The notes below the pieces were generated by a model that made no database searches, had not been told where the DNA came from, and saw only the letters and a list, made by a program, of their open reading frames with translations. Shown here one piece after another: positions 240 to 31,923 of a stretch of DNA of 44,708 bases (position 1 is the first letter of the stretch; each line of letters starts with the position of its first letter). The translations under genes were made by a program, and so were the position numbers. Source of the DNA: Sphingobacteriaceae bacterium (lineage in GTDB: Bacteria; Bacteroidota; Bacteroidia; B-17B0; Aurantibacillaceae); NCBI GenBank assembly GCA_947480015.1, contig CANKBS010000030.1, forward strand, positions 1 to 44,708, in the 5' to 3' direction.

Positions 240-1223
240 ATGAAAGTTTTAGTTACCGGTGCCGATGGTTTTATTGGCAGTCATTTAGTTGAGACTCTCG
301 TTAATTCTGGTCACAAAGTTAAGGCCTTTGTATATTACAATTCATTCAATAGCTGGGGTTGGCTTGATAAATTAAGCAAAGAAACTTTATCCAAAATTGA
401 TGTAATAACCGGTGATATAAGAGATTCGGTTTGTGTTCGACTGGCAGTTCAAGATGTAGATGTTATTTATCACTTAGCAGCGCTAATTGCAATACCATAT
501 AGTTACCAAGCACCCGAAAGCTATGTAGATACTAACGTTGTAGGAACCTTGAATATTGTTCAGGCAGCAAAAGAACTAGGTGTTTCAAGAGTACTGATAA
601 CATCCACTTCAGAGGTTTATGGAACCGCCATGTATGTTCCAATTGATGAAAAACATCCAAAACAAGCTCAGTCTCCTTATTCAGCTTCCAAAATCGGTGC
701 AGATGCCATGGCAGATAGCTTCTTCAGAAGTTTTAATGTGCCCGTTACCATTGTTCGTCCATTTAATACTTATGGGCCTCGTCAGTCTGCCCGTGCAGTT
801 ATACCAACAATTATTACACAATTGCTTGCCGGGAAAACAGAAATTAAGTTAGGCGCACTTCATCCCACAAGAGATTTGCTATTTGTTAAAGATACCGTGA
901 ATGGTTTTATGGAAATTGCCAAGTCGAATAAAACCATTGGTGAAGAAGTAAACATTGCAACCAATAGTGAAATAACAGTTGGCGAACTGGCTCAAAAACT
1001 AATCACTGCAATTAATCCATCCGCAAAAATTATAACGGATGATATTCGTTTACGTCCTGATAAAAGTGAAGTAGAGCGCTTGTTTGGAGACAACACCAAA
1101 ATTATGCAGCTCACAAATTGGAAGCAGCAATTTTCGCTTGATCATGGGCTTAAAGAAACCATCGAATGGTTTAAGAATCCGGAAAATAACAAATCGTATA
1201 AATCAGATATTTATAATGTTTAA
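240..1223 (+). CDS. legB: NDP-GlcNAc 4,6-dehydratase, LegB type (extended SDR)
   Basis: A 327-residue extended short-chain dehydrogenase/reductase. The NAD-binding motif TGADGFIG is at residues 6-13, the conserved TSTSEVYG strand at 121-128 and the catalytic YxxxK pair at Y147/K151. The RPFNTYGPRQSARAVIPT stretch near 173-190 is typical of LegB-like sugar dehydratases. Such enzymes convert GDP- or UDP-GlcNAc to the 4-keto-6-deoxy sugar, the first committed step towards legionaminic acid. The start at 240 gives a normal N-terminus. The gene overlaps the following aminotransferase by 8 bp, the usual LegB-LegC pairing. The LegC, LegI, LegG, PtmE and LegF neighbours make the legionaminate assignment much more likely than a generic dehydratase, but the nucleotide carrier (GDP or UDP) cannot be read from sequence alone. 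Confidence 0.88.
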   Translation: MKVLVTGADGFIGSHLVETLVNSGHKVKAFVYYNSFNSWGWLDKLSKETLSKIDVITGDIRDSVCVRLAVQDVDVIYHLAALIAIPYSYQAPESYVDTNVVGTLNIVQAAKELGVSRVLITSTSEVYGTAMYVPIDEKHPKQAQSPYSASKIGADAMADSFFRSFNVPVTIVRPFNTYGPRQSARAVIPTIITQLLAGKTEIKLGALHPTRDLLFVKDTVNGFMEIAKSNKTIGEEVNIATNSEITVGELAQKLITAINPSAKIITDDIRLRPDKSEVERLFGDNTKIMQLTNWKQQFSLDHGLKETIEWFKNPENNKSYKSDIYNV

Positions 1224-2361
1224 GGAAGTAACCGACTTCATAAAAACTACTTTTCAAACTCAGGATTTTATTCCCTTACATGAACCTCGTTTCATTGGTA
1301 AGGAAAAAGAATATCTCGCAGATTGTATCGACTCTACTTACGTTTCTTCTGTTGGAAAATATGTAGATGAATTTGAGAAGAGAATTAGAGACTACACAGG
1401 AGCAAAATATGCCATTGCAACTGTAAATGGCACAGCTGCATTGCATACAGCATTGATTCTCGCTGGAGTAAACGAAGGTGATATTGTTATAACGCAAGCC
1501 TTATGTTTTATTGCAACTTCTAATGCCATTTCTTATCAAAAGGCTATTCCACTTTATATTGATGTAGATAAAAAAACTTTGGGTTTATCTCCTGAGAAAT
1601 TAGCAGAATACCTTCATGAAAATGTTGTGAGGAAAAATGATGGTTACAGTTATCACAAATCATCCGGAAAAAAAATTACCGCCTGTGTACCAATGCATAC
1701 ATTCGGACACCCAGCAAAAATTGATGAGGTCGCCAAAATATGTGCAGACTATAATATAGTTTTAATTGAAGATGCTGCTGAATCGCTTGGGAGTACTTAT
1801 AAAGAAAAACAAACCGGCTTATACGGAAAAATAGGCGCTTACAGCTTTAACGGCAACAAAACGATTACCTGCGGCGGCGGCGGCATGGTCGTTACTAATG
1901 ATGAGGTATTAGGAAAAAGAGCCAAACACATTACAACTACAGCAAAGGTGCCACACAGATGGGATTTTGTGCATGATGAAATTGGATACAATTACAGGCT
2001 CCCGAATATAAATGCTGCATTAGCTTGTGCACAAATGGAAAATTTGGATTTATTTATTTCCAAAAAAAGAGAATTGGCAAAACAGTATTATGATTTTTTT
2101 AATAACAAAGAAATCATGTTTGTTAGTGAACCTGAAAATTCTAAATCCAATTATTGGCTAAATTCAGTATTACTCAATGATAGAGATGAGAGGGATAAAT
2201 TTCTTTCATACACCAATGATAATAAAGTGATGACAAGACCGGTATGGACTTTAATGAATAAACTGGAAATGTTTAAAAATTGTCCCAAAGGAAATCTTGA
2301 TAATTCGGAGTGGATTGAGGATAGATTGGTTAATATACCGAGTAGTGTCACCAATGTCTAA
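1216..2361 (+). CDS. legC: LegC-type PLP aminotransferase (DegT/DnrJ/EryC1)
   Basis: A 381-residue fold-type I aminotransferase of the DegT/DnrJ/EryC1 family. It should put an amino group on C4 of the 4-keto-6-deoxy-HexNAc nucleotide sugar made by LegB, using glutamate and PLP. Visible features are the NGTAALH cofactor-binding segment (71-77), EDAAES with the PLP-ring aspartate (185-190) and the Schiff-base lysine in SFNGNK (K215), followed by a glycine run CGGGGMV. I chose the ATG at 1216 because it aligns with family N-termini; the frame stays open upstream to 1084, but that would overlap legB by 140 bp. The glycine run is coded by consecutive GGC codons (about 1871-1884), a short repeat that could slip. 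Confidence 0.88.
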   Translation: MFKEVTDFIKTTFQTQDFIPLHEPRFIGKEKEYLADCIDSTYVSSVGKYVDEFEKRIRDYTGAKYAIATVNGTAALHTALILAGVNEGDIVITQALCFIATSNAISYQKAIPLYIDVDKKTLGLSPEKLAEYLHENVVRKNDGYSYHKSSGKKITACVPMHTFGHPAKIDEVAKICADYNIVLIEDAAESLGSTYKEKQTGLYGKIGAYSFNGNKTITCGGGGMVVTNDEVLGKRAKHITTTAKVPHRWDFVHDEIGYNYRLPNINAALACAQMENLDLFISKKRELAKQYYDFFNNKEIMFVSEPENSKSNYWLNSVLLNDRDERDKFLSYTNDNKVMTRPVWTLMNKLEMFKNCPKGNLDNSEWIEDRLVNIPSSVTNV

Positions 2362-2412
2362 GAATGTTGTTTAGATTGTGAAAATCATCATAAATTGTAA
2401 TTTTGAAAAAAA

Positions 2413-3429
2413 ATGAAAAATGTTATAATTATAGCTGAAGCAGGTGTTAATCATAATGGTGATATGAACTTGGCACGTGAATTGATTCGCGCGGCAGCGA
2501 AATGTGGGGTCGATTTTGTTAAATTCCAAACCTGGGTTACAGATGAACTTATTGACACAAATGCCCCTAAGGCTTCTTATCAATTAACTAACGATGGGTC
2601 AGAGACTAATCAGTATGATATGCTAAAAAGACTTGAACTTTCATTTGAGGATTTTCGTAATTTGAAGAAATATGCCGACGAAATTGGAATTTCGTTTCTT
2701 TCTACACCCGATGACATTCTGAGTTTGAATTTTCTTGTTGACGAACTTAAAATGGATATTATTAAGGTCGGATCTGCTGAAATATCCAACATTCCATTCT
2801 TGAGAAGAATTGGCGGAAAGCAAAAGGATGTGATTTTGTCAACAGGCATGGCCACTATGGATGAAGTAGTCACGGCATATGACATTTTACATTCAGCAGG
2901 TGCAAAATCGATTGCAGTGCTGCACTGCACATCTAAATATCCAGCAGACTATGAATCGGTTAACCTTAAGGCAATGCTTTCTTTGGGTGAGCAGCTCGGT
3001 TGTCGAATTGGGTATTCCGATCATACTGTTGGTAATGAAGTATCTATTGCAGCTGTAGCAATGGGGGCGCAAATAATTGAAAAGCACTTTACTATTAATA
3101 AATTACTACCAGGACCTGATCATAGGGCCTCTATTGACACTCAAGAACTAACTGCACTTGTAAATCAGATCAGGAATATTGAAAAGGCTGTTTCAGGAGA
3201 TGGTAAAAAGGTACCACAATTGGGAGAAGAAGAGATTCGTAAAGTTGTAACAAAGGGCATTTATGCGCGATACAACCTTCTGCCGGGTGATAAATTCGCT
3301 GAAGAAAACCTCATGTTTAAAAGACCTGCCGGAGAAGTTGCAGTTGACCAGTTTGACTTAGTAGTTGGCAAAAGTGTGAAAAGGGAAATCCACAGAGGAG
3401 AGCAACTGAGACTGACTGACATAACATAA
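2413..3429 (+). CDS. legI: Legionaminic/sialic acid synthase (NeuB family, LegI)
   Basis: A 338-residue NeuB-family synthase that condenses a 6-deoxy-diacetamido hexose with phosphoenolpyruvate to form the nine-carbon nonulosonic acid. The barrel motifs appear in order: AEAGVNHNG (8-16), KFQ (37-39), KVGSAE (118-123), STGMA (143-147), HCTSKYP (171-177), SDHT (202-205), EKHFT (223-227) and GPDHRAS (234-240). A C-terminal SAF/antifreeze-like domain follows from about residue 275. Length and layout match full-length LegI/NeuB. NeuB, LegI and PseI share this architecture; the legionaminate reading comes from the adjacent hydrolysing 2-epimerase, which the pseudaminate route does not use, and from LegB/LegC. 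The 51 bp gap before it is AT-rich and the ATG follows an A-rich leader. Confidence 0.88.
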   Translation: MKNVIIIAEAGVNHNGDMNLARELIRAAAKCGVDFVKFQTWVTDELIDTNAPKASYQLTNDGSETNQYDMLKRLELSFEDFRNLKKYADEIGISFLSTPDDILSLNFLVDELKMDIIKVGSAEISNIPFLRRIGGKQKDVILSTGMATMDEVVTAYDILHSAGAKSIAVLHCTSKYPADYESVNLKAMLSLGEQLGCRIGYSDHTVGNEVSIAAVAMGAQIIEKHFTINKLLPGPDHRASIDTQELTALVNQIRNIEKAVSGDGKKVPQLGEEEIRKVVTKGIYARYNLLPGDKFAEENLMFKRPAGEVAVDQFDLVVGKSVKREIHRGEQLRLTDIT

Positions 3430-3448
3430 TTCGTATTATTGTTGATAG

Positions 3449-4615
3449 ATGAACAAAAAAAAAATCTGTTTAGTTACCGCTGCTCGTTCGGAATATGGCT
3501 TACTAAAGTGGGTAATACAGGAGATGCATGGAGATGCAGATATTAAGCTTCAATTGATTGTCACGGGAAGCCATTTATCGGAAAAATTTGGATTTACATA
3601 CCGAGAGATTGAGACCGATGGATATGATATTGATGAAAAGGTTGACATGAGGTTGAATATTTTTAATCAAAAGGAGATTGCAGTGTCAATGGGATATTGT
3701 GCGATTGGAATGGCAGAATGTTTTGACCGATTAAAACCGGACCTACTCCTAGTATTAGGGGATCGTTATGAACTTTTACCAATCTGTTCAACAGCTTTGC
3801 TTATGGATGTTCCCATAGCACATATTTCTGGTGGTGATATTACCGAGGGAGCTTTGGACGATCAAGTGCGCCATAGCATTTCAAAAATGGCCACCCTACA
3901 TTTTCCTGGTTCAGAGGAGTCAGCTAAACGTCTCGTAAATATGGGTGAGTATCCTGAAACGGTACTGAATGTTGGTGAGTTGGGTGTAGATGGGTTTCGC
4001 ATGACGCCATTGATAGCAAAGACTGTATTGGCATCTGAGTACCAACTTAATGAAAATGCAAAGTGGGTTCTGCTCACCTATCACCCCGAAACAAAGATAT
4101 CATTGGAAAGAAACAAAGAGGTTGTTATTAGATTAATTGAATCGATGGACCGAATTGATGGGATACAAGTTATTATGAGTTACGCAAATGCTGATTTTGG
4201 AGGCGAGGTCATAAATAAGGTATTGGAAGATGCCGCATTAAGTAAGCCAAGCAAATTCAAAGTGTTAAAGAGCTTTGGTTACAATCGTTACATAAATATG
4301 ATGCGACATGCTTTTTGCATGGTTGGTAATTCATCTAGTGGTTTGTTCGAAGCGCCATCTGTTCCATTGCCTGTTATTAATATTGGTAATCGTCAGAAGG
4401 GGAGAATGACTTCAGTGAATGTTATTACAATTGATTCTGATTTTAAAACCTTGAACGAATATTTTGACCTTTTTTTGTCGGAATCATTTAGAACTAATCT
4501 GAAAAGCACCATCAATCCATACGGTGATGGCTATGCTAGCCGACGCATTAAAGATGCTATTAAGTCAAAGATGGAACAACCATTGATTAAAAAAGGTTTC
4601 TACTCAAAAAGTTAA
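3449..4615 (+). CDS. legG: Hydrolysing NDP-sugar 2-epimerase (NeuC/LegG)
   Basis: A 388-residue GT-B-like hydrolysing 2-epimerase of the WecB/NeuC group. It should release the nucleotide from the 2,4-diacetamido-6-deoxy sugar while inverting C2, giving the substrate of the synthase encoded just upstream. Family signatures are AARSEYG (11-17), GDRYELLP (104-111), HISGGDITEGALDDQ (125-139), RHSISK (141-146) and GNSSSGLFEAP (about 291-301). The length is normal. The gene begins 19 bp after legI and ends 3 bp before the FemAB-like gene, so it is very likely co-transcribed. The codons straight after the start form a run of ten adenines (3455-3464; M-N-K-K-K), a possible slippage site. Confidence 0.9.
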   Translation: MNKKKICLVTAARSEYGLLKWVIQEMHGDADIKLQLIVTGSHLSEKFGFTYREIETDGYDIDEKVDMRLNIFNQKEIAVSMGYCAIGMAECFDRLKPDLLLVLGDRYELLPICSTALLMDVPIAHISGGDITEGALDDQVRHSISKMATLHFPGSEESAKRLVNMGEYPETVLNVGELGVDGFRMTPLIAKTVLASEYQLNENAKWVLLTYHPETKISLERNKEVVIRLIESMDRIDGIQVIMSYANADFGGEVINKVLEDAALSKPSKFKVLKSFGYNRYINMMRHAFCMVGNSSSGLFEAPSVPLPVINIGNRQKGRMTSVNVITIDSDFKTLNEYFDLFLSESFRTNLKSTINPYGDGYASRRIKDAIKSKMEQPLIKKGFYSKS

Positions 4616-4618
4616 TAT

Positions 4619-5647
4619 ATGCCAGAATACAATTTTACACAATATTGGAACGAAGATCTCGTTAAATTTGGTAAGGAACATACTGATGTCTATTTTACAG
4701 AAGATTATATTAAACTCTATGAAAGCGACAAATCTGTTGCAGAATGTTTCGTTTATTCCGACCACGAAAAAAAATTCTTATTCCCTTATTTAAAAACAGA
4801 GGTGCCTTGGTCTGATGCAAAACTTTATGATATTGAAAGCCAGTATGGTTATGGTGGGCCTTTAGCTAATACCGAAGATCTGGCTTTTCTTGCTGACGCG
4901 CAAACGTGCCTCCACAAAACGTTTATTGAAAAGGGGATCATTGGTGGCTTTGTGCGCTTTCATCCTTTGCTCCAAAACGAATCACTATTAGCCAAAATCT
5001 TTAGAATTGAATTTAACAGGAAAACCGTAGCTATTGACCTTACCAAGGATGAAGCCACTATAAAGAATGAGTTTAGTTCGATGAATCAAAGAGCTATAAG
5101 AAAGGCATATAAAAGTGGCCTTCAAGTTATTATAGATCCATTATTTGAACACTTTGAGAGTTTTAAACAAATTTATGTCAACACAATGAGGCGCGTGAAT
5201 GCCCACGACTTCTATTTTTTTGACGATGTCTATTTTGAAGAGTTGAAAAAAAATAAAAATGCCTATCTGAGCCTGATAAAGAAGGAAAATGTTTTTATAG
5301 CTGCCGCTGTTTTTTTTAAGAACGGATTTTATGCTCATTATCACCTAGGCGGGAGCTTAGCTGAGTTCCAAAGTGACAAACCCAATAACTTGCTTTTCTT
5401 TGAGAACGCAATTTACTTGAAGAAAAATGATTGTAGGATTTTGCACTTGGGAGGTGGAACAGATAGCTCGGAAGAAAATAGTCTGCTGCAGTTTAAAAGG
5501 GGATTTTCAAAACATGAATTTCATTTCTATATTGGTAAAGCAGTGTTTAATAGGTTGGAATACGACAGGGTCTGCAGAGCCTGGCACCTTGAGGACCCGG
5601 AGAAACATTTGCTCGATAGCCCGAATCTTTTAAAATACAGAACTTGA
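4619..5647 (+). CDS. FemAB/GNAT-like acyltransferase, candidate LegH-step enzyme
   Basis: A 342-residue protein resembling the FemX/GNAT-fold transferases found in polysaccharide clusters. The N-terminal half has DIESQYGYGGPL (71-82), a segment typical of these proteins. The second half carries MNQRAIRKAYKSG (155-167) and a YAHYHLGGS/FENAIYLKKND core, as in the second GNAT domain of FemAB proteins. It has no signal peptide or membrane segment, so it should be cytoplasmic. It lies 3 bp after legG and 1 bp before a methyltransferase. The legionaminate pathway needs an N-acetyltransferase on the C4 amine (LegH), and no canonical hexapeptide-repeat or small GNAT LegH is visible here, so this is the best local candidate. 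The family is clear to me; the substrate is inferred from position only. An aminoacyl or other acyl donor is equally possible. Confidence 0.7.
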   Translation: MPEYNFTQYWNEDLVKFGKEHTDVYFTEDYIKLYESDKSVAECFVYSDHEKKFLFPYLKTEVPWSDAKLYDIESQYGYGGPLANTEDLAFLADAQTCLHKTFIEKGIIGGFVRFHPLLQNESLLAKIFRIEFNRKTVAIDLTKDEATIKNEFSSMNQRAIRKAYKSGLQVIIDPLFEHFESFKQIYVNTMRRVNAHDFYFFDDVYFEELKKNKNAYLSLIKKENVFIAAAVFFKNGFYAHYHLGGSLAEFQSDKPNNLLFFENAIYLKKNDCRILHLGGGTDSSEENSLLQFKRGFSKHEFHFYIGKAVFNRLEYDRVCRAWHLEDPEKHLLDSPNLLKYRT

Positions 5648-5648
5648 T

Positions 5649-6431
5649 ATGCCGATTATTAAGACGCAAACCAACATTGAGGTTTATAAGTATCTCGCGA
5701 GGCAGAAAGACATTCACTTTCTTTCGGGTAGATCCAAGAATAAAAATGTAACGGAGTTTGTTAACCGATGCATCATTGACAAAATGAAGTTTGGTGCCGA
5801 TGATAATGTTGTGGATGTAGGATGTGGAGATGGTTCTTTGTTAGCTCAAATAGCCAATCAAGTAAAGTCTGTCACCGGCATAGTCCCTACTGATGAAGAA
5901 GAAGAAAGGCTGATATCATCCTACAAGGGAATTGCCAATTTATTGTTTATTAAAAGTAGAGCCGATTCAATAAAATGCTTAAACAGTTTTGCAAACAAAA
6001 CTGTTTGTAATGGTGTAATGCTGCTGCTTACAGACCTAAATGAGGTAAAAAGAGCCATTTCGGAACTATCACGCATTACCCAGTCTGGGGGAACCTTGTG
6101 GATAGGAGAAGTAGCAATTGTTGACGAATATTCAGGTAAAAATTATGGAAAATCAATCATTAAATGGCTGTGGTATATGCTTATAAACGGAGACTTTCTA
6201 GGTTGTTACAATGGCCTTGTTAAAGCCTTAAAATCAAAATTCACAAGTCAGGATTTTATTATTCAGCCAAAAAAGATGTTTAGCATTGAGGCCGATCGCT
6301 TTGTAGAGTTGTGTATTTTAAATGGACTAGAGTTGATTGAGATGAAAACGCATTTGACAATAGGTATTAATGGAATTCCGATTGAGCTAAAGTCGAGAAT
6401 GAATTTTATTTTTAAAAAAGTTAAATCATGA
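5649..6431 (+). CDS. Class I SAM-dependent methyltransferase (1)
   Basis: A 260-residue class I methyltransferase. The SAM-binding motif I is VVDVGCGDG (54-62), followed by a post-I acidic region (GIVPTDEEEE) and a motif IV-like CNGVMLLLTDLNEV segment. A C-terminal extension of about 100 residues is rich in aromatic and lysine residues and may form the substrate cap. It has no membrane segment. It starts 1 bp after the FemAB-like gene and its stop overlaps the start of the next methyltransferase (ATGA). In Campylobacter legionaminate clusters a methyltransferase (PtmH) N-methylates the acetimidoyl group, so a nonulosonate-modifying role is plausible. The acceptor cannot be deduced from sequence. 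Confidence 0.72.
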   Translation: MPIIKTQTNIEVYKYLARQKDIHFLSGRSKNKNVTEFVNRCIIDKMKFGADDNVVDVGCGDGSLLAQIANQVKSVTGIVPTDEEEERLISSYKGIANLLFIKSRADSIKCLNSFANKTVCNGVMLLLTDLNEVKRAISELSRITQSGGTLWIGEVAIVDEYSGKNYGKSIIKWLWYMLINGDFLGCYNGLVKALKSKFTSQDFIIQPKKMFSIEADRFVELCILNGLELIEMKTHLTIGINGIPIELKSRMNFIFKKVKS

Positions 6432-7099
6432 ATAGAATAGGCTGGGATCCAATATGGGAAGAAGTATTTATTCAACAGGAATGGGGCAAGTACCCTGGTG
6501 AAAGCCTGATTCGTTTTATTGCCAGAAATTATTATAAGCTAAACCGCCCTGATGTAAAAATACTTGAAATAGGTTGTGGTGCGGGAGCTAATATCTGGTA
6601 TATGTCGCGTGAAGGTTTTGATGTCTACGGTATTGATGGTAGCGAAACCGCCATAGGGAAAGCCAGTCAGTTGCTAGTAGATGAGAATCTATCTGCCAAA
6701 CTAACGGTTGGTGATATAATTCAACTGCCATATGCGGATGGTTTTTTTGATGCGGTAGTAGATGTTGAGTGTATTTGTTGTAATAGTATCAACGATTCAA
6801 AGAAAATATTGTCAGAGGTCACAAGGATTTTGAAGCCTTCTGGACAATTTTATTCGCGAACTTTTTCAGAAAAAATGTATGTAGGTAAACAAAATTTCCG
6901 GATAAGTGCGCTAGAATACAACAATATTTCGGATGGACCATTAGCCGGTAAAGGGTTTGTGAGATTAATGGATAATGAGTCAATCGATATTTTGTATGGA
7001 AGCCAATTTAAAATTCTTTCTATCGACAGATCAGATATCACTGTTAGTAACGGCGAAGTGGCGATCAGTGAATGGATCATCGTATCACAAAAAAAATGA
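6428..7099 (+). CDS. Class I SAM-dependent methyltransferase (2)
   Basis: A 223-residue class I methyltransferase with a clean motif I, LEIGCGAGAN (46-55), an acidic ribose-binding VYGIDGS (66-72), a GDIIQLPYADGFFDAVVD motif II region and an ILKPSG turn, as in the Methyltransf_11/25 group. Its start overlaps the stop of the preceding methyltransferase by 4 bp, which suggests translational coupling and a shared pathway. The two methyltransferases differ in length and motif, so they are not a recent duplication. Likely substrates are the nonulosonic acid or its acetimidoyl group, or another sugar in the glycan; this is inferred from context. A gap of about 72 bp follows before the nucleotidyltransferase gene. 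Confidence 0.75.
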   Translation: MNRIGWDPIWEEVFIQQEWGKYPGESLIRFIARNYYKLNRPDVKILEIGCGAGANIWYMSREGFDVYGIDGSETAIGKASQLLVDENLSAKLTVGDIIQLPYADGFFDAVVDVECICCNSINDSKKILSEVTRILKPSGQFYSRTFSEKMYVGKQNFRISALEYNNISDGPLAGKGFVRLMDNESIDILYGSQFKILSIDRSDITVSNGEVAISEWIIVSQKK

Positions 7100-7171
7100 A
7101 CCGAAACATTATTTTTATTTCACGATTCCTCAACAACTAAGGTTTGAAGCTTATCTTTAACCCAACTTTTT

Positions 7172-8239
7172 ATGAAACAGTTTGATTCTAAAAGAATGAT
7201 TTTACCCTGCACTTCATCTATACGGGATGGTGTTGAAAGACTTGATCAGATTGCCGCGGATACTACGCCACACTCAGTATTATTCATAATTGATGAAGGC
7301 CAGCGTTTAGTGGGAACAGTGACTGATGGTGATGTCCGTCGAAGGTTGTTAATTGATGGAACTGTAACAGGACCAATAACGGAATGTATGCATACAAACT
7401 TTCGCTTTCTAAGCAGAGCTAAGTTTGAGCCAACTGAAGCCGAAAAGCTAAGAAACTTGAATATCAGATTTGTTCCGCTATTGACTGAATCTGGTACAAT
7501 TGAAAAGATATTGGATCTAAGCGCATATAAGGCATTCCTGCCGTTAGAAGCAGTATTGATGGCTGGTGGCGAGGGCCAACGTCTCAGACCACTAACACAG
7601 TCAACTCCGAAGCCGCTTCTAAGAATTGGGGACAAAACAATTATCGAGCACAATATCGAAAGGCTAATGAAGTATGGGGTAAATAAGATCCATGTTTCAG
7701 TCAGATACCTGAAAGAACAGATTGTGGAGTACCTAGGTAATGGCGAAAGGTGGGGAATTTCAGTCGAATACATTATTGAAGATTCACCGTTGGGAACGAT
7801 TGGGGCTTTGGGGCAGAAAGAGGGTTTCACGAGTGAGTATGTTTTGGTTATGAATTCTGATTTGCTTACGAATATTGATTTTGCTGATTTTTATACGTTT
7901 TTTCAAAATAGTGAGGCTGATTTTCTTATAGCCTGCATTCCTTTCAAAGTAAGCGTGCCTTATGCGGTTATCGAGGTAGATTCAGATCACAATATTTTAT
8001 CGCTTCAAGAGAAACCAATGATGACCTATTTTTCAAATGCGGGGATATACTTATTTAGGAGAGAAATTGCAGACCTAATTCCTCGTGGTCAAAAGCTTGA
8101 CGCGACTGACCTGATTGAAAATATAATTTCCAAGGGGATGAAGGTTAAATCATATCCTCTTTCAAATTATTGGCTCGATATTGGCCGTATGGAAGATTTC
8201 AAAAAGGCGCAGGAAGATATCAAACATATTATCTTTTAA
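7172..8239 (+). CDS. ptmE: CBS-domain sugar-1-phosphate nucleotidyltransferase (PtmE type)
   Basis: A 355-residue two-part protein. Residues 1 to about 120 hold a pair of CBS-like motifs (including GTVTDGDVRRRLL near 48-60), and from residue 126 there is a GT-A-type nucleotidyltransferase with AGGEGQRLRPLT (131-142), TPKPLL (145-150) and a MNSDLLTNIDF metal-binding region. This CBS-nucleotidyltransferase fusion is the architecture of Campylobacter PtmE, a glucosamine-1-phosphate guanylyltransferase that feeds the GDP-linked legionaminate pathway. Co-location with LegB/C/I/G and LegF supports the same role here and suggests the early intermediates are GDP-linked. Its TAA shares one base with the ATG of the next gene. 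The alternative is another NDP-hexose pyrophosphorylase; guanylyl specificity would need assay. Confidence 0.8.
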   Translation: MKQFDSKRMILPCTSSIRDGVERLDQIAADTTPHSVLFIIDEGQRLVGTVTDGDVRRRLLIDGTVTGPITECMHTNFRFLSRAKFEPTEAEKLRNLNIRFVPLLTESGTIEKILDLSAYKAFLPLEAVLMAGGEGQRLRPLTQSTPKPLLRIGDKTIIEHNIERLMKYGVNKIHVSVRYLKEQIVEYLGNGERWGISVEYIIEDSPLGTIGALGQKEGFTSEYVLVMNSDLLTNIDFADFYTFFQNSEADFLIACIPFKVSVPYAVIEVDSDHNILSLQEKPMMTYFSNAGIYLFRREIADLIPRGQKLDATDLIENIISKGMKVKSYPLSNYWLDIGRMEDFKKAQEDIKHIIF

Positions 8240-8916
8240 TGGAAACTTTATTTATTATACCCGCGCGAGGCGGTTCAAAAGGAATTCCAGGTAAAAATAT
8301 CAAAAATTTGAATGGAAAACCCTTGATATACTATTCTATTGAGGTTGCTCGTCAACTGACCACGGATGATAATATATGTTTGACAACTGATAGCATGGAG
8401 ATAATTGATGTCGCTAAAAAATGTGGACTAAAAGTCCCATTCATAAGACCGACTCGTTTGGCGACTGACTTCGCAGGATCTAACGAAGTTATATTACATG
8501 CTATGGAATATTACGAAAAACAGAAAAAAAAAATTCAAACTATCGTTTTGTTGCAGCCTACATCTCCTTTCAGAGAGCCACAACAAATAAAGGAAGCAAT
8601 GGAATTAATGAGTGGAGATATTGAAATGGTCGTTTCAGTGAAATTGAGTTCTGCAAATCCTTATTATTCAATAGTTGAGGAAGATGAACTTGGTTTTCTT
8701 AAGCTATCGAAAGAAGGTTCCTATACTAGGAGACAGGATTGTCCGCCAGTTTATGAATATAACGGATCTATATATGTCATCAATACCAATGCTTTGAAGT
8801 GTTCTTCTATTGATAAGTTTACAAGGGTGAAAAAGTATTTGATGGATGATATTCATTCAGTGGATCTGGATACTCAGTTAAACTGGGATTTTGCGGAATT
8901 TTTGATGAACAGATAA
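8239..8916 (+). CDS. legF: CMP-legionaminate/acylneuraminate cytidylyltransferase (LegF/NeuA)
   Basis: A 225-residue acylneuraminate cytidylyltransferase that activates the nonulosonic acid with CTP for transfer. The signature nucleotide-binding loop PARGGSKGIPGKN is at residues 8-20, the LLQPTSPFR strand lies in mid-protein and an EYNGSIYV segment follows. I set the start at 8239, where the ATG overlaps the previous stop as TAATG, because the PARGGS loop then sits at its usual distance from the N-terminus. The open frame continues upstream to 8170, inside ptmE. A second ten-adenine run (8524-8533) lies mid-gene in a K-K-K-I context. An 87 bp AT-rich gap follows. This is the last recognisable step of the legionaminate set. 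Confidence 0.9.
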   Translation: METLFIIPARGGSKGIPGKNIKNLNGKPLIYYSIEVARQLTTDDNICLTTDSMEIIDVAKKCGLKVPFIRPTRLATDFAGSNEVILHAMEYYEKQKKKIQTIVLLQPTSPFREPQQIKEAMELMSGDIEMVVSVKLSSANPYYSIVEEDELGFLKLSKEGSYTRRQDCPPVYEYNGSIYVINTNALKCSSIDKFTRVKKYLMDDIHSVDLDTQLNWDFAEFLMNR

Positions 8917-10916: not shown

Positions 10917-11213
10917 ATGGCGATGCGCGAGGAGAAATTAAAATTTATGAAATCATTAATGTGGGATTATAACATTCCACCTGAACATTGTCTTGAAGTA
11001 TTGGAAGGCACCCGAAAAAATGCAGGGCATTATACAGAAGCCACTTTGTTTAGAAAAATGCTTGAATCTTACCGTTGGTTTACAATTTTAAAAATACTCT
11101 CTACCAAACGAATTGCCGAACTTCTCACAGATGATGTGGTTAAATCATTGCGATTTAAATCAATGAGAACAAACTATGAGTTTATCCAAAAAAAACTACA
11201 GCGCGCTATATAA
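10917..11213 (+). CDS. Small partner of AbiEii-like nucleotidyltransferase (antitoxin-like)
   Basis: A 98-residue basic protein that overlaps the following AbiEii-like gene by 38 bp. It has the look of the small proteins encoded just upstream of AbiEii nucleotidyltransferases in Bacteroidota: an LMWDYNIPPEHCLEVLEG start, a helical LFRKMLESYRWFTILKIL centre and a SMRTNYEFIQKKL tail. I see no classical winged-helix or AbiEi domain. By position it would be the antitoxin or specificity partner of a type IV-like toxin-antitoxin pair; that function is inferred. The ATG at 10917 follows the previous stop by 3 bp, and a second ATG at 10923 is possible. The reading frame is intact although its partner is interrupted. 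Confidence 0.6.
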   Translation: MAMREEKLKFMKSLMWDYNIPPEHCLEVLEGTRKNAGHYTEATLFRKMLESYRWFTILKILSTKRIAELLTDDVVKSLRFKSMRTNYEFIQKKLQRAI

Positions 11214-11910
11214 ATTACAGGATAAAGTAATGGAAACTTTATCTGGTAATTACCGAAGCTTATACCTTACAGGAGGAACTGCCCTTGGTAGATTTTACTT
11301 AGATCATAGGTACAGCGATGATCTTGATTTTTTTACTAATAATGATCCGGCCTTTAAAGAAATAGTAAATAAAATTCGTGCAGTTCTTGAAACGAAGTTC
11401 AATTTTCTTTCAGATAAAATTATTCTTTATGACCAATTTATCCGGCTTTGGGTTGAAGAAAAGAACTGTGAATTAAAGATTGAATTTGTAGATGATGTTG
11501 CTGCTCGATGGGGCAATCCTGTTTTTATTCGTAATATTCTAATAGATAATCCCGGGAATATTTTGGCTAATAAACTTACTGCAATAGTTGGTCGAGATGA
11601 ACCAAAAGATGTGTTTGATATCATCCAACTTTCATAACATTATTCGTTTAATTGGGCCGATGTTTTTGAACAAAGTATTCGAAAGTCGATTATTAATGAG
11701 CAAGATGTGGCAATGCGCCTTGCAACATTTCCTGTAGAATTATTTGCATCGCAGCCCTGGTTGAAACAGGCTGTTAATGTTGCAGACATGAAAGCTAAAA
11801 TAGATACGATTACCGATGATTTTTTGTTTGCAAGAGACAATTCGCTTGGTATTGGAAAGACACATATTTTGGATGCGAAACCAATTGTACCAAATGCAAA
11901 TATTTTTTAG
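11176..11910 (+). pseudogene. AbiEii-type nucleotidyltransferase toxin, interrupted by in-frame TAA
   Basis: The first part (11176-11637, 153 residues) is a minimal nucleotidyltransferase of the AbiEii/AbiGii family: LTGGTALGR (31-39) and HRYSDDLDFF (44-53) give the G-G/S and D-x-D metal-binding pattern. Translation stops at TAA 11635-11637 after FDIIQLS. The same frame then continues without a shift to TAG 11908-11910, with HYSFNWADVFEQS and MRLATFPVELFASQPWLKQ, which is the usual C-terminal continuation of this family. So a single nonsense codon (for example CAA to TAA) splits an otherwise complete frame of about 244 codons. An internal ATG at 11707 could start a C-terminal fragment. The toxin is probably inactive unless the stop is read through or the truncated N-terminal domain works alone. 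Confidence 0.8.
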
Positions 11911-22138: not shown

Positions 22139-22987
22139 ATGAAAAAACTTTTAAAACCTTTGATTAGATTTTTAGTAACAACAGGTGTTACCTGGAAAAC
22201 CATTAATCTGTTTATAAAAATTACTCACCGCTTTAAATTTGAAAAGGATCTTATTGAAATTGAAAAAGGGCGAGAGGTTCAGCAAAATAAAGAGAAGCGG
22301 ATTAAGGAAAAGTTTGCTGACCTTACCGTGAGGCATGGTTTTTTTAAGGGAATGACCTATTTTCCTTATGAGTCTCATGGAAGCTCACTCTATCCTAAAT
22401 TATTAGGCAGCTATGAATCAGAGTTAAGTGAAATTATTGAACAAATTTGCAAAACAAATTATTCCGAAATTATTGATGTAGGTTGTGCAGAAGGGTTTTA
22501 TGCTGTGGGATTTGCAAGGCGTATGTTTGAGGTTATAGTATACGCTTATGATAATGATCCGCTTGCTTTGACTGAAGCTAAACGAATGGCAGAGTTAAAT
22601 AAGGTGGCTAACCGTGTTGTTTTTAATTCTTTTTGTTCAGCTTCCACGTTGAGCGAATTTAAATTTACTGGTAAAAGCCTGATTTTTTGTGATTGTGAGG
22701 GATATGAAATCGAGCTTTTTAATTCTTCCAATATTTCTAATTTACTTAAAACAGATATTTTGATTGAATTACATGATGGAAAAAACGAACGTATTTCTCC
22801 CTATCTTTTTAAATTATTTGAAAAAACCCACAATCATAAACTAATTCAAAGTGTTAATTGTTTCACAAAAGCATCTGAATATTTTGAATTAAAAGATTTA
22901 ACAGATGATGAGTTGGAAATATGTTTACAGGAGCGGGGTGGTATTCAGCAATGGGTCTTTTTTACTTCCAAAATAGAATTAAAATGA
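22139..22987 (+). CDS. FkbM-like SAM-dependent methyltransferase
   Basis: A 282-residue protein with a basic N-terminal region of about 60 residues and a methyltransferase core. Motif I is IIDVGCAEGF (111-120), an acidic AYDNDPLALTEAK follows, and a FCDCEGYEIELF segment (about 185-196) closely resembles the conserved D-x-EGyE signature of FkbM methyltransferases. FkbM-type enzymes in glycan clusters O-methylate sugars. The stop overlaps the start of the kinase gene as ATGATAA, which suggests coupling to the heptose-type trio. The substrate is unknown. Confidence 0.7.
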   Translation: MKKLLKPLIRFLVTTGVTWKTINLFIKITHRFKFEKDLIEIEKGREVQQNKEKRIKEKFADLTVRHGFFKGMTYFPYESHGSSLYPKLLGSYESELSEIIEQICKTNYSEIIDVGCAEGFYAVGFARRMFEVIVYAYDNDPLALTEAKRMAELNKVANRVVFNSFCSASTLSEFKFTGKSLIFCDCEGYEIELFNSSNISNLLKTDILIELHDGKNERISPYLFKLFEKTHNHKLIQSVNCFTKASEYFELKDLTDDELEICLQERGGIQQWVFFTSKIELK

Positions 22988-23862
22988 TAAATAAAATTAA
23001 AGATTATATTCAAAAATTCGAAGAATTATCTGTTCTGGTTATTGGTGAAACAATTATTGATGAATTTATTACCGTCAATTATGAAGGGCAATCAATGAAA
23101 TCTATCTGCCCTGTTTACAAGCTAGATGGTGACAAAAATGTCCAACAGGGGGGCACACTTGCTATAGCAAATCACCTCAATGGTTTCGTGAAGAAACTTG
23201 ATCTGATTACAAACGAAAATAATGAGATTGTTAAAACCAGGTATATTGACAAGGATGATAAAAAAAAGCATGTCGAAATAAACAAATTTGAAACTCTGAA
23301 CTTCAAACCTATTTCCGTAATAACATCCGATTATGATGTTGTGATCGTTGCTGATTTTGGACATGGCTTTTGCGACAAACTAACCATTACTGATGGGTTT
23401 CACTTAATGTGCCAGACAAATTCAAATAATTTCGGCTTCAACCGAATCTCAAAGTGGAAAAAACACTTAAAAAAAAGTGTTTGTTTAGACCTAAGAGAAG
23501 CAAGTTTGCAGATGAATAAAAAAATTAAATTTCAATCACAGGAAGAAATACTGGAACTGTACAACTATGAAATGAATACAGAGCATCTATTCCTTACTAT
23601 CGGGCGCGTAGGCTCTGCTTATACAAATGGAAATGAAATTATCAGGCAAAAAACATTTAAATGCGATGTGGTCGATACAATCGGCGCCGGCGACACCTTC
23701 TACGCCTTTGCCTGCTTAATGGGCGCATTAAATGATAGTGATAAAAAAGACATTATGCTGATCCCTGCTTTAGCCGCAAGCCTTTCTACTACCTGGTTAT
23801 GTAATGAAAAAAGTGTTACACCTCAAACATTAATTGAACATGCAAATAAATTCGTATTCTAA
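22984..23862 (+). CDS. PfkB-family sugar kinase, heptose-7-phosphate kinase-like
   Basis: A 292-residue ribokinase/PfkB-fold kinase. GETIIDEF (21-28) and a QQGGTLAIANHL segment resemble the substrate-binding start of RfaE/HldE domain I, and the catalytic anion-hole motif DTIGAGDTF has GAGD at 234-237. I chose the ATG at 22984, which overlaps the previous stop; an open frame extends upstream to 22921 but would lie within the methyltransferase gene. It is followed, with a 23-bp overlap, by a GmhA-like isomerase and then a nucleotidyltransferase. Together they look like the separate-gene version of heptose phosphate activation. No GmhB phosphatase or HldD epimerase is in the window. Confidence 0.75.
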   Translation: MINKIKDYIQKFEELSVLVIGETIIDEFITVNYEGQSMKSICPVYKLDGDKNVQQGGTLAIANHLNGFVKKLDLITNENNEIVKTRYIDKDDKKKHVEINKFETLNFKPISVITSDYDVVIVADFGHGFCDKLTITDGFHLMCQTNSNNFGFNRISKWKKHLKKSVCLDLREASLQMNKKIKFQSQEEILELYNYEMNTEHLFLTIGRVGSAYTNGNEIIRQKTFKCDVVDTIGAGDTFYAFACLMGALNDSDKKDIMLIPALAASLSTTWLCNEKSVTPQTLIEHANKFVF

Positions 23863-24370
23863 AGTTTTTAATGATTATTTCATATCACGTGAATTCCTTT
23901 CTGAACAAAAAGAAGCGATTTCTTTATTCTTAAAAAGTAAGCGAATTTTTTTTATTGGAAATGGTGGTTCAAACGCCATTTGTTCTCACATGATGGAAGA
24001 CTACGCGAAAATCGCGTCTTATCAAACCTTTACATTTTCTGATCCTGCGTTAATAACTTGCTTTTCCAACGATTACGGTTACGAAAACGCGATGAAAGAA
24101 TGGCTTAAGATCTATTTTTCAGAAGGAGATGTTTTAGTGGCAATCAGTAGTTCCGGCAATTCACCAAATATTGTGAACGCAGTGAGCGAAGCAACTAAAA
24201 AAGGCAAAGTAATAACGCTTTCAGGGTTTAAACCCGATAACAAACTGAAAGCAATGGGCGATCTTAATTTTTATATTAATGCTTCTAATTATGGGATAGT
24301 CGAATGTTTTCACCAGGTTATTTTGCATGTGATTTTAGACGAAATTGCACTTATTAATCCCAAAAAATAA
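23840..24370 (+). CDS. gmhA: SIS-domain phosphosugar isomerase (GmhA-like)
   Basis: A 176-residue SIS-domain protein close in length and layout to sedoheptulose-7-phosphate isomerase. IFFIGNGGSNAICSHMMEDY (about 34-53) is the phosphate-binding loop region, DVLVAISSSGNSPNIVNAV (about 95-113) is the second SIS signature, and VECFHQVILHVILDE near the C-terminus carries the GmhA catalytic-region glutamate and histidines. It would convert sedoheptulose 7-phosphate to D-glycero-D-manno-heptose 7-phosphate, the substrate of the preceding kinase. I prefer the ATG at 23840; a TTG at 23834 in the same frame is possible. The start lies inside the kinase gene. Confidence 0.8.
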   Translation: MQINSYSKVFNDYFISREFLSEQKEAISLFLKSKRIFFIGNGGSNAICSHMMEDYAKIASYQTFTFSDPALITCFSNDYGYENAMKEWLKIYFSEGDVLVAISSSGNSPNIVNAVSEATKKGKVITLSGFKPDNKLKAMGDLNFYINASNYGIVECFHQVILHVILDEIALINPKK

Positions 24371-24384
24371 TTTTATTTAAATTC

Positions 24385-24804
24385 ATGAAAATTGGTTTTG
24401 CCTGTGGTGTTTTTGACCTGTTTCATGCGGGTCATGTGCTCATGCTTAAGGAATGCAGAGGAAACTGCGACTACCTGCTAGTAGCGCTGAACAGGGCTGA
24501 AAATTTTTCGGAGACGATCAATCCGGGCAAAAAAAAACCGGTTTATTCACTCGAAGAGCGGAAACTGATCCTGGCAAGCTGCCGCTATGTAGATGAAGTC
24601 ATAGACTATGCATCGGAAGAAGACCTGTTGAAACTGCTCAAAACAAGGAATATCTCGATTCGCTTTTTAGGTGATGACTATAAACAGAAGCCGATAACCG
24701 GTGATGACTTAGGAATTGAAATTTATTACACGGACAGGAGTCACGGGTTGAGTACGAGCTATTACAGGGGGAAATTAACTAAGAAAAACAAGAATGCTGA
24801 ATAG
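24385..24804 (+). CDS. Cytidylyl/adenylyltransferase (TagD/RfaE domain II-like)
   Basis: A 139-residue nucleotidyltransferase of the HxGH superfamily. GVFDLFHAGH has the HAGH motif at 14-17, RKLILASCRYVDEVI (59-73) and FLGDDYK follow, and RSHGLSTS (118-125) corresponds to the RTEGISTT motif. The latter two features are closer to glycerol-3-phosphate cytidylyltransferase (TagD) than to E. coli HldE, but the position after a heptose-type kinase and isomerase argues for activating heptose 1-phosphate. The nucleotide (ADP, GDP or CDP) is open. It overlaps the next gene by 11 bp. GC content is visibly higher here than in the flanking glycosyltransferase genes. Confidence 0.78.
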   Translation: MKIGFACGVFDLFHAGHVLMLKECRGNCDYLLVALNRAENFSETINPGKKKPVYSLEERKLILASCRYVDEVIDYASEEDLLKLLKTRNISIRFLGDDYKQKPITGDDLGIEIYYTDRSHGLSTSYYRGKLTKKNKNAE

Positions 24805-25656: not shown

Positions 25657-26784
25657 ATGGTGTGTACAAAATGCATATTAACATCTGAAGACGCGTCTGA
25701 AATTACCTTCGACACGAATGGCGTATGCAGCTTCTGTAATCACTATGAGACAAGCCTTAAGTCACAGGTATCCAAATCTGATCGCAGTAAAGATCTTGAG
25801 CAGCTTATAAAGGATGTTAAAGAAAAAGGCAAAGAATATGATTGCATTATAGGCGTCAGCGGCGGTGTGGATAGCACCTATGTGGCCTACCTCGCAAAAC
25901 AAAAAGGCTTAAGGCCACTTGCCGTGCATCTGGATTACGGATGGAACAGTGAACTGGCGGTTGCAAATATCCGATCCACATTAAATGTACTCGGAATCGA
26001 TTTGTACACACATGTGGTTGACTGGGAAGAAATAAAAGACTTACAGCTGGCATTTCTAAAAGCATCTGTTGTTGATATTGAATTGTTGAACGACTTTGCT
26101 ATTTATGCAGTTCTTCATAACCAGGCCTACAAACGAGGTATCAAATATGTGTTGCACGGTATGAATACAGAAACAGAAGGTGGGAAATTGCCTGAAGGTT
26201 GGGCGCATGAAAAATTTGACCAGTTAAACATTTTGTCCATCCATAAAAAATTTGGACATAAACAACTCAAAACTTATCCGCGCCTTTCTTTTTTTAAGCG
26301 TTTATATCTGATGAAAGTATATAAGCTACAATGGGTAGGGATTCTTGATTTTATGCCTTACAACAAAGACCAGGTGAAAGAGCTCATTATAAAAGAACTG
26401 GCATGGCGCGATTACGGCGGAAAACATTTTGAGTCGATATTCACACGTTTTTACCAGGCTTATATCTTACCGAGAAAGTTTAAGATTGACAAACGTAAAT
26501 TCCATTACTCAGTTCTGATTTGTTCGGGACAAATGACCCGTGAACAAGCCATAAAGGAAATGGAGAAACCCGCGTACGATCCACAAATGCTTAAAGAGGA
26601 TTACGCCTTCGTACTTAAAAAACTCGGACTCACTGAAGGCAAATTTGAAGCAATCATGGATCTTCCGGTAAGAAGCCATCTAGAATATTCTTCCTATGTA
26701 AACAAACACTATAAAAATTACGAAATGTTTTTTAAAGCAATTAAACCAATGACGCAATTCGTGAAAAAATTAATAGGAAAGTAA
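25657..26784 (+). CDS. N-acetyl-sugar amidotransferase (WbpG/PseA family)
   Basis: A 375-residue ATP-dependent amidotransferase. Residues C3, C6, C24 and C27 (CTKC and CSFC) form the N-terminal zinc-ribbon signature, and the PP-loop GVSGGVDST is at 66-74. HGMNTETEG and ILDFMPYNKDQVKELI are typical of the family. WbpG/PseA/LegA-type enzymes convert an N-acetyl group to acetamidino, using ammonia passed from HisH- and HisF-like partners. No HisH or HisF lies next to this gene, though a HisF-like fragment is at the left edge of the window, 25 kb away. Codon choice is somewhat GC-richer than the flanks. The target could be the nonulosonate or the diacetamido-uronate sugar. Confidence 0.85.
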   Translation: MVCTKCILTSEDASEITFDTNGVCSFCNHYETSLKSQVSKSDRSKDLEQLIKDVKEKGKEYDCIIGVSGGVDSTYVAYLAKQKGLRPLAVHLDYGWNSELAVANIRSTLNVLGIDLYTHVVDWEEIKDLQLAFLKASVVDIELLNDFAIYAVLHNQAYKRGIKYVLHGMNTETEGGKLPEGWAHEKFDQLNILSIHKKFGHKQLKTYPRLSFFKRLYLMKVYKLQWVGILDFMPYNKDQVKELIIKELAWRDYGGKHFESIFTRFYQAYILPRKFKIDKRKFHYSVLICSGQMTREQAIKEMEKPAYDPQMLKEDYAFVLKKLGLTEGKFEAIMDLPVRSHLEYSSYVNKHYKNYEMFFKAIKPMTQFVKKLIGK

Positions 26785-30898: not shown

Positions 30899-31921
30899 AT
30901 GAAAAAAAGGAAAATAAAATTTGCAGTGGTGGGCTGCGGAAGTATTGGAAAAAGACATATTGCTGTTCTGGATGCAGAACCTGAAGCGGAAATAGTGGCT
31001 ATTTGTGATTTGGATGAAAAAAAGTGTTTGGAACAATCTCAACTTTATCAGAATATACCATATTATACTTCATATGAAAAAATGATTGAACAGATTAAAG
31101 CGGATGTAATTAGCGTGGTTACACCACACTTCTTGCATGCGGACATGGCAATTAAAGCACTCAATAAAAAATTCAATGTTCTGGTTGAAAAACCAATGGC
31201 TTTATCAGTGAAAGATTGCCAGGCTATGAATCAAGCGGCAGTGGAGAACCAGATGAAATTATGGGTAGTAAAACAAAATCGTCATAATGTTCCGATTAAG
31301 CTTGCGAAAGATGCGATTGATAAAGGAATGTTAGGAAAGATCTTTATGGTTAAATGTGATATTCTTTGGAACCGTTATCAAGGTTATTACGACGAGTCAC
31401 CATGGAGAGGTAAAAAGAAAGAAGAAGGAGGAGCCCTGTATACACAAGCCAGTCACTTTATTGATTTGTTGGTTTGGTGGTGCGGCGATGTGCAGGACGT
31501 GAAGACTTTTATGGAAACTCAAAACCATAATATTCAGACAGAAGATTCGGGCAGCGCTATTCTTAAATTTACTTCAGGAGCAATGGGAAGTTTGAACTGG
31601 ACCACCTGCGTTTACAACAAAAATTACGAAGGCAGTATCACCATCGTTGGAGAATACGGCACGATTAAAATTGGAGGACAGTACCTTAACAAAATTGAAT
31701 TTTGGGACGTGCTTGGTTATCCGCTTCAGGAAGGAATTGAATTTACAGATAAGCCAAACGCTTATGGAAAATATCAGGGAACCAGTTCAAACCATGATAA
31801 AGTGATTAAAACTATTATTGAAACGATGCGGAATAACGAAGTTAGCGTCGAAGCTGTAGAAGGATTAGAGGGTATGCGCTGTGTGGACGCCATTGAAAGA
31901 ATCTATAAGGCTTCAAATTGA
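30899..31921 (+). CDS. wlbA: WlbA/WbpB-like UDP-GlcNAcA 3-dehydrogenase (Gfo/Idh family)
   Basis: A 340-residue Gfo/Idh oxidoreductase. GCGSIGKRH (12-20) binds NAD and VEKPMALS has the catalytic lysine of EKP (97-99). KQNRHNVPIKLAKDAI and the GGALYTQASHFIDLLVWW segment are characteristic of WlbA/WbpB, which oxidise C3 of UDP-GlcNAc uronic acid. A hexapeptide N-acetyltransferase and a PLP aminotransferase follow directly with 1-3 bp junctions, the complete WlbA-B-C order. The pathway makes UDP-2,3-diacetamido-2,3-dideoxy-glucuronic acid. The preceding 6-dehydrogenase (WbpA) is not adjacent; the AlgD-like gene at 40246 is the only nucleotide-sugar dehydrogenase in view. Confidence 0.85.
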   Translation: MKKRKIKFAVVGCGSIGKRHIAVLDAEPEAEIVAICDLDEKKCLEQSQLYQNIPYYTSYEKMIEQIKADVISVVTPHFLHADMAIKALNKKFNVLVEKPMALSVKDCQAMNQAAVENQMKLWVVKQNRHNVPIKLAKDAIDKGMLGKIFMVKCDILWNRYQGYYDESPWRGKKKEEGGALYTQASHFIDLLVWWCGDVQDVKTFMETQNHNIQTEDSGSAILKFTSGAMGSLNWTTCVYNKNYEGSITIVGEYGTIKIGGQYLNKIEFWDVLGYPLQEGIEFTDKPNAYGKYQGTSSNHDKVIKTIIETMRNNEVSVEAVEGLEGMRCVDAIERIYKASN

Positions 31922-31923
31922 AA

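Follow-up and report, generated by a model that had tools for sequence, protein, structure and literature searches.

We analyzed a 44,708-nucleotide contig of a Sphingobacteriaceae bacterium (CANKBS010000030.1, assembly GCA_947480015.1), hereafter the window, which belongs to a 3.77-Mb genome that is 99.99% complete. A check of its open reading frames revealed nine genes at positions 240-8916, all on the plus strand, and these encode a near-complete legionaminate pathway together with a FemAB-like protein, here termed FemABL, in the slot of LegH, the acetyltransferase of the C4 amine (Table 1). A first-pass annotation, made from the letters alone, had described these nine genes with junctions of 1 to 3 bp around the FemABL gene, and the coordinates bear this out: 3 bp separate the LegG stop (4615) from the FemABL start (4619), 1 bp separates the FemABL stop (5647) from the start of the methyltransferase MT1 (5649), and the reading frames of MT1 and the second methyltransferase, MT2, share 4 bp. 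The same annotation proposed that FemABL either replaces LegH as an acetyltransferase or attaches an unusual acyl or aminoacyl group.

Table 1. Genes of the legionaminate cluster in the window, with model scores and cut-offs in bits
Product	Position	Strand	Support
LegB, nucleoside diphosphate (NDP)-N-acetylglucosamine (GlcNAc) 4,6-dehydratase	240..1223	+	TIGR04180, 507.6 vs cut-off 475
LegC aminotransferase, makes the C4 amine	1213..2361	+	TIGR04181, 543.2 vs cut-off 420
NeuB-family nonulosonate synthase (LegI role)	2413..3429	+	TIGR03569, 412.8 vs 399.65; PF03102, SAF
LegG-type hydrolysing 2-epimerase	3449..4615	+	TIGR03568, 404.6 vs 235.9
FemABL, 342 residues, candidate aminoacyltransferase of FemX-like double-GNAT type at the LegH position	4619..5647	+	PF02388, 36.0 vs 24
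MT1, class I methyltransferase	5649..6431	+	PF13649/PF08241
MT2, class I methyltransferase; may N-methylate the aminoacyl group that is added	6428..7099	+	PF08241
PtmE-like nucleotidyltransferase with N-terminal CBS-like region	7172..8239	+	PF00483 at residues 127-351
LegF-like cytidine monophosphate (CMP)-nonulosonate cytidylyltransferase	8236..8916	+	PF02348, 85.6 vs 22.6

LegB, LegC, LegG and the NeuB/LegI-type synthase, which had been named from motifs, all exceeded the cut-offs of curated models, consistent with membership of a legionaminate pathway, and LegC had one single place in its own genome at E ≤ 1e-100; the models passed by the LegG and LegI homologues (TIGR03568 and TIGR03569) do not tell Leg from Neu, TIGR03569 being a NeuB model, and no LegI-specific model was among the matches of the synthase. 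Two further assignments stood in part. The proposed PtmE-type CBS-nucleotidyltransferase has its nucleotidyltransferase domain, while the CBS Pfam model was not among its matches and the CBS portion is indicated by similarity, with residues 37-117 aligning to positions 233-313 of the 321-residue GutQ (2.6e-5), which we take to be the CBS pair of that protein. The LegF-like protein passed PF02348 and scored 166.2 bits against the PseF model TIGR03584, under its cut-off of 205.7.

The Leg cluster of the window contains no recognized gene of the hexapeptide, formyl, GNAT or ATP-grasp type, so that FemABL is the only recognized cluster-encoded candidate for acylating the LegC product. FemABL itself matched neither TIGR03570 nor a hexapeptide model at E ≤ 0.001 and is not a member of the LegH/NeuD/PglD family. 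The earlier claim that a canonical hexapeptide or small GNAT candidate for LegH is lacking thus holds for the cluster and fails for the window as a whole, where a hexapeptide protein lies at 31918-32391, far from the Leg genes. This protein was rejected as LegH, being part of a Gfo/Idh oxidoreductase, hexapeptide acyltransferase and DegT aminotransferase row (30899-33494) that we take to be a 3-acetamido-sugar type set; the same trio stands beside FemABL in locus L094 (Aureispira).

A canonical legH elsewhere in the genome, which the first-pass annotation had held up as the counter-evidence to look for, was rejected as well. Across the whole genome the NeuD/PglD model TIGR03570 matched 15 places, all under its cut-off (best 52.8 versus 160.8 bits), and the PseH model TIGR03585 matched 3 places, likewise all under (best 49.9 versus 93.1). 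The PglD_N domain PF17836 had one match over cut-off (26.1 versus 23.4 bits), in a 629-aa protein on another contig, which was also rejected as LegH, since by eye it is a dehydratase of the PglF/CapD type that lacks hexapeptide repeats. A LegH of unrecognized type may be encoded somewhere in the genome.

The description of the 4619 product as FemAB/GNAT-like was upheld by its PF02388 score and by its predicted fold. PF02388 matched 13 of 17 FemABL family members at E ≤ 0.001, and a profile of 17 relatives searched against the PDB matched eight sequences at that threshold, all of them FemX-type or aminoacyl-tRNA-dependent. FemX scored best (1.7e-19), and the eight also include 6snr, a lipid II glycyltransferase, as well as 9wqw and 9wqy, two peptide synthases that depend on aminoacyl-tRNA; Sbb17 was a distant match of the family profile (6e-8). 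A single-sequence search of the PDB gave three weak matches, the best at 0.024 and 6snr at 0.032. The structure prediction that had been proposed as a check was run with AlphaFold2 and gave a model with a mean predicted local distance difference test score of 91.5 and a predicted template modeling score of 0.88, in which the whole chain forms a double GNAT like that of FemX and not a hexapeptide fold. Foldseek matched this model to 7z6a at 2.5e-15, and structural Z scores were 24.3-26.3 to FemX, FemA, Sbb17 and Sba18 and lower for MprF (≤19.3), an uncharacterised Bacteroides protein (18.8) and coenzyme A (CoA)-type GNATs (≤15.7). In the profile alignment, Phe304-Lys305 of FemXWv align with Phe292-Lys293 of FemABL, and position 293 is Lys and position 292 Phe or Tyr in 107 of 107 sequences, near-copies among them. 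Together, the family profile and the predicted fold point to the tRNA-dependent enzymes (FemX, FemA, Sbb17 and MprF) as the relatives of FemABL, and a fold shared with such enzymes does not prove the donor.

The survey of other Leg clusters that the first-pass annotation had suggested supported its placing of FemABL in the LegH slot. LegC over cut-off was found in 40 of 395 Bacteroidota genomes (38 loci fetched, the other two being the window and L035); 35 of the 40 loci also hold a LegI-type gene, 33 of these without FemABL, and the slot count excludes the five without a recognized LegI. Among the 33 FemABL-less clusters, 24 have a hexapeptide gene, 9 a formyltransferase-like gene and 1 an ATP-grasp gene, with at least one of these in 31 (L174 and L177 being the sole exceptions). 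The 15 nonulosonate clusters with FemABL comprised the window, L041 and 13 from a scan of contigs, L058 having been put in by hand with no LegG recognized; they contained 1 hexapeptide, 2 formyl, 2 GNAT and 1 ATP-grasp gene, and 10 of the 15 had none of these. Hexapeptide genes were thus rarer with FemABL (1/15 versus 24/33; Fisher p = 2.2e-5) in a narrow count that misses a NeuD-like fragment in L127 and an LpxD-like gene in L130, and they remained so when the whole stretch was counted, both of these included and the near-copy L056 removed (3/14 versus 24/33, p = 0.003), although the two sets were sampled differently (a Bacteroidota LegC survey versus a pattern scan of all prokaryotes) and the statistics ignore relatedness. 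Methyltransferase genes showed the opposite trend (9/15 versus 1/33, p = 2.6e-5), as did genes with MT2 as best match (7/14 FemABL nonulosonate loci versus 2/33 FemABL-less Leg loci, p = 0.0014).

Two compact relatives illustrate the arrangement, L122 (Paenibacillus qinlingensis), with the order LegB-LegC-LegG-LegI-FemABL-MT2-PtmE-LegF, and L130, with LegB-LegC-LegI-LegG-FemABL-PtmE-LegF; in both, FemABL is the sole recognized acylation candidate inside the cluster. Just upstream of the Paenibacillus cluster lies a Maf-type flagellin glycosyltransferase gene (L122:3673-5535; MptE-like, Maf_flag10_N), which suggests flagellin as the glycan carrier there.

FemABL is not confined to nonulosonate clusters. 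The contig scan covered prokaryotes, by patterns drawn from four sequences (L035 first) and hence with a bias in which relatives were found, and yielded 87 confirmed FemABL relatives, of which 80 were kept; a scan of viral contigs gave zero. Carriers span Bacteroidetes, Cloacimonadota, Ignavibacteria, Campylobacterales, Deltaproteobacteria, Clostridia, Bacillus-type genera and others, and a genome of the same genus as the window's host (G037) carries a FemABL locus too (L030), which was met again as L053; L052 is 88% identical to L035. Three loci stand outside the alignments, L033 (Azospirillum), L034 (Deinococcus) and L044 (G415), as longest-reading-frame calling missed their FemABL, the G415 frame having a stop codon; one of two FemABL matches in G100 was used, and a Deinococcus proteolyticus plasmid match was not. 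With neighbor genes labeled by best BLAST hit to about 50 reference proteins, rather than by curated models, unless a family search is named, a LegC/PglE-type aminotransferase lies on the same stretch in 53 of the 80 loci and a PglC-type sugar transferase in 21, and 13 loci were classed as nonulosonate clusters. Some loci have FemABL adjoining PglE/PglC without nonulosonate genes. On a Cetobacterium plasmid, for instance, a dehydratase, a LegC-family aminotransferase, a sugar transferase and FemABL are consecutive, with no PglD annotated among or beside these four genes; an acyltransferase family protein gene and, by eye, a hexapeptide transferase lie about 4 kb beyond FemABL. The intermediate shared by nonulosonate and PglE/PglC-type loci is a nucleotide-linked 4-amino-4,6-dideoxy sugar. 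A tree of 106 FemABL proteins was built by a quick method; its deep branches are weak, and some end branches, L041 and L130 among them, are long. Explaining the nonulosonate label on this tree takes 10 gains or losses, of which well-supported branches require at least 6, which indicated that FemABL has switched between cluster kinds repeatedly.

Modifying enzymes are frequent next to FemABL. Within three genes of it, or fused to it, a methyltransferase, small GNAT, NeuD-type or other hexapeptide, formyl or ATP-grasp gene was found in 52 of the 80 loci (overlapping counts: methyltransferase 6, GNAT 21, NeuD-type 9, other hexapeptide 4, formyl 5, ATP-grasp 10), the ATP-grasp protein near FemABL in L043 being PylC-like. 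Three loci carry fusions, each adjoining a LegC-type gene: FemABL followed by a NeuD domain in a single frame (L061:2762-4522; TIGR03570, 175.6 bits, over the cut-off of 160.8), a NeuD-like domain followed by FemABL, again in a single frame (L087:9314-11032; 158.9 bits, just under), and a NeuD-type domain followed by FemABL, laid out as in L087 by similarity to it (L096:5697-7415). Aminoacyl transfer leaves a new amine, on which neighboring methyl-, acetyl- and formyl-transferring enzymes make sense, and they make less sense after plain acetylation; the fusions and the modifying-enzyme neighbors thus suggest that the group added by FemABL bears a free amine. In addition, a protein of about 365 aa, by eye related to DegT-type pyridoxal phosphate enzymes and with no Pfam match at 1e-5, occurs in 24 of the 80 loci, in 21 of them at most three genes from FemABL (for example L031:7899-8996), and might be the source of an unusual amino acid or amino group.

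From the genes present, the family of FemABL, its predicted fold and invariant residues, the slot substitution seen in other genomes and the fusions, all observed directly here, we infer the activity of FemABL, its tRNA dependence, its acceptor amine, the order of steps and the methylation. LegB and LegC would convert NDP-GlcNAc to a 4-amino-4,6-dideoxy sugar, the substrate being linked to guanosine diphosphate should the PtmE-like protein act like its Campylobacter counterpart. FemABL would then transfer an amino acid from aminoacyl-tRNA to the C4 amine, Lys293 being used as FemX uses Lys305, and this aminoacylation would stand in for LegH acetylation. LegG, the LegI-type synthase and LegF would carry the sugar on to a CMP-nonulosonate, in which the C4 amide would end as a 7-N-aminoacyl group (Leg5Ac7-aminoacyl), and MT2, perhaps with MT1, would probably methylate the free alpha-amine. 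We put the probability that FemABL aminoacylates the LegC product at its C4 amine, so that a 7-N-aminoacyl legionaminate results and is probably N-methylated by the neighboring methyltransferase, at about 0.6. Slightly better than even, in our estimate, are the chances of the wider proposal, in which a widespread FemX-type family moves amino acids from charged tRNAs onto nucleotide-linked 4-amino-4,6-dideoxy sugars, at the C4 amine, in legionaminate- and bacillosamine-type pathways alike. The LegH/PglD slot would then be a cassette with a choice of acyl groups (acetyl, formyl, aminoacyl or one made by an ATP-grasp enzyme), and its aminoacyl version would be modified further through N-methylation, through acetylation or formylation, or through extension by a peptide.

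Several observations weigh against the proposed aminoacylation of the LegC product, besides the unequal sampling of the two cluster sets. No LegC/PglE-type aminotransferase lies on the stretch in 27 of the 80 FemABL loci, some of these stretches being short, and MT2-type genes are present in 2 of the 33 Leg loci without FemABL too. The LpxD-like hexapeptide gene of L130 lies upstream and is divergent (197.1 and 189.8 bits, under both cut-offs), and L127, whose frames are broken, carries its NeuD-like fragment. Moreover, the nonulosonate label is clustered on the tree beyond chance (none of 500 shuffles was as low for its complement), so that the FemABL nonulosonate clusters are not all independent. 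The remaining points belong with the alternatives that they favor.

One alternative, which we consider improbable, is that FemABL is a non-orthologous LegH, a double GNAT switched to acetyl-CoA or another acyl-CoA, which acetylates the C4 amine to give ordinary Leg5Ac7Ac. FemABL does sit where FemABL-less clusters have a NeuD-type or formyl enzyme, the GNAT domain PF13480 matched 16 of the 17 family members, CoA-dependent tandem GNATs have the same fold, with lower Z scores, and four of the five relatives found in 72,556 plasmid records are annotated as GNAT family N-acetyltransferase. However, every PDB match of the family profile at E ≤ 0.001 was FemX-type or tRNA-dependent, the FemX lysine is invariant in the family, and plain acetylation leaves the NeuD fusions and the frequent extra methyl-, acetyl- and formyltransferases unexplained. 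Of the two options in the first-pass annotation, aminoacyl transfer is therefore favored and plain acetylation is the weaker, since sequence, fold and invariant lysine match the tRNA-dependent relatives and the fusions and neighbors fit a free amine.

Equally improbable, in our judgment, is that a LegH encoded elsewhere acylates the C4 amine, while FemABL attaches an amino acid at a different site or later on in the making of the glycan. The hexapeptide and GNAT genes under the TIGR03570 and PseH cut-offs could serve as LegH in trans, and some relatives have a NeuD domain, GNAT or formyltransferase beside FemABL, which is there not necessarily the only or the first acylating enzyme. Nevertheless, no place in the genome passed the NeuD or PseH cut-off, acyl-type genes are inside nearly all FemABL-less clusters and absent from most FemABL clusters, and FemABL also stands beside PglE/PglC in loci that share the 4-amino sugar as intermediate with nonulosonate clusters. 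A role on peptidoglycan like that of FemX, with FemABL in the cluster by chance, is very unlikely and was rejected: the closest solved structures include the peptidoglycan enzymes FemX and FemA, but the operon junctions are tight, relatives turn up, with the genome of the window counted each time, in just 2 of 87 genomes of the family at E ≤ 1e-20 and in 18 of 395 across the phylum at E ≤ 1e-15, which argues against a core cell-wall gene, the family is tied to 4-amino-sugar genes, and the peptidoglycan-directed activity considered in the first-pass annotation found no counterpart in the cluster, where no peptidoglycan gene was recognized.

Elsewhere in the window, a WbuX-type N-acetyl sugar amidotransferase is encoded at 25657-26784, about 17 kb downstream of legF (TIGR03573, 284.6 versus 203.2 bits); this enzyme could turn an acetamido group of the nonulosonate into an acetamidino group, and no HisH/HisF-like partner of it was recognized by eye. 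A row at 22921-24804 of PfkB kinase, SIS-domain isomerase and cytidylyltransferase-like genes resembles an activated-heptose module. Two small genes (98 and 153 aa) lie at 10917-11637 between a Gfo/Idh pair and an ABC exporter, the second being AbiEii-type nucleotidyltransferase-like by eye.

If aminoacylation by FemABL is correct, it would define a class of nonulosonates and bacillosamines that carry aminoacyl groups, bring tRNA-dependent aminoacylation into the chemistry of bacillosamine and of sugars resembling sialic acid, link glycans of the cell surface to the supply of charged tRNA, explain clusters that seem incomplete without LegH or PglD, and allow the N-acyl group to be predicted from the gene in the LegH slot. 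A FemAB-type aminoacyl option as an exchangeable acyl slot in nonulosonate- or bacillosamine-type clusters does not appear in print, as judged from the open literature, with most subscription papers lying outside the search. There, FemAB with legionaminic acid returned only work on Clostridioides difficile, in which legionaminic acid appears just in the reference list, bacillosamine with FemAB gave no co-mention, and co-mentions of nonulosonic with aminoacyl-tRNA were unrelated by title; a broader search brought up no relevant nonulosonate work among the papers listed.

Compared with known systems, the cluster matches the Campylobacter jejuni CMP-legionaminate pathway, whose scheme is described in part in excerpts of PMC6137143 and PMC13317340, in its LegB, LegC, LegG, LegI and LegF roles and its PtmE-like protein, and differs from it in having FemABL for LegH and two adjoining methyltransferases. 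FemABL holds the slot after LegC as do LegH, PglD and NeuD (TIGR03570), and is fused to such domains in three relatives; unlike them, it is without a hexapeptide fold and outside that family. According to excerpts of PMC5207245 and PMC5207246, the flagellar Fuc3N of C. difficile carries a glycine amide-linked on its amino group, with alanine and a taurine unit beyond it, and the authors name a FemAB-like gene as candidate for the acylation. That type B flagellin glycan locus resembles FemABL loci in having a FemAB-like gene (CDR20291_0244) with ATP-grasp and sugar aminotransferase genes, a likeness by description and not by sequence; in contrast, its excerpted account concerns a 3-amino sugar and no nonulosonate. 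Aminoacylation of an amino-sugar intermediate has a precedent in Orf11 (BD-12), which, as excerpted from PMC12945691, uses Gly-tRNA to acylate streptothrisamine and is likewise likened here by description, not by sequence. Sbb17 and Sba18, aminoacyl-tRNA-dependent enzymes whose structures were solved with streptothrisamine, share the predicted fold of FemABL (Z 24.6-24.8); unlike FemABL, they and Orf11 act in antibiotic pathways. Finally, FemABL is like Weissella viridescens FemX and Staphylococcus aureus FemX/FemA in its predicted double-GNAT fold (Z 24-26), its PF02388 match and the Phe/Tyr-Lys pair at FemX positions 304/305, and unlike them in its low identity (14-17% in structural alignments), its location in sugar clusters and its proposed acceptor, which would be a 4-amino sugar linked to a nucleotide and not a precursor of peptidoglycan.

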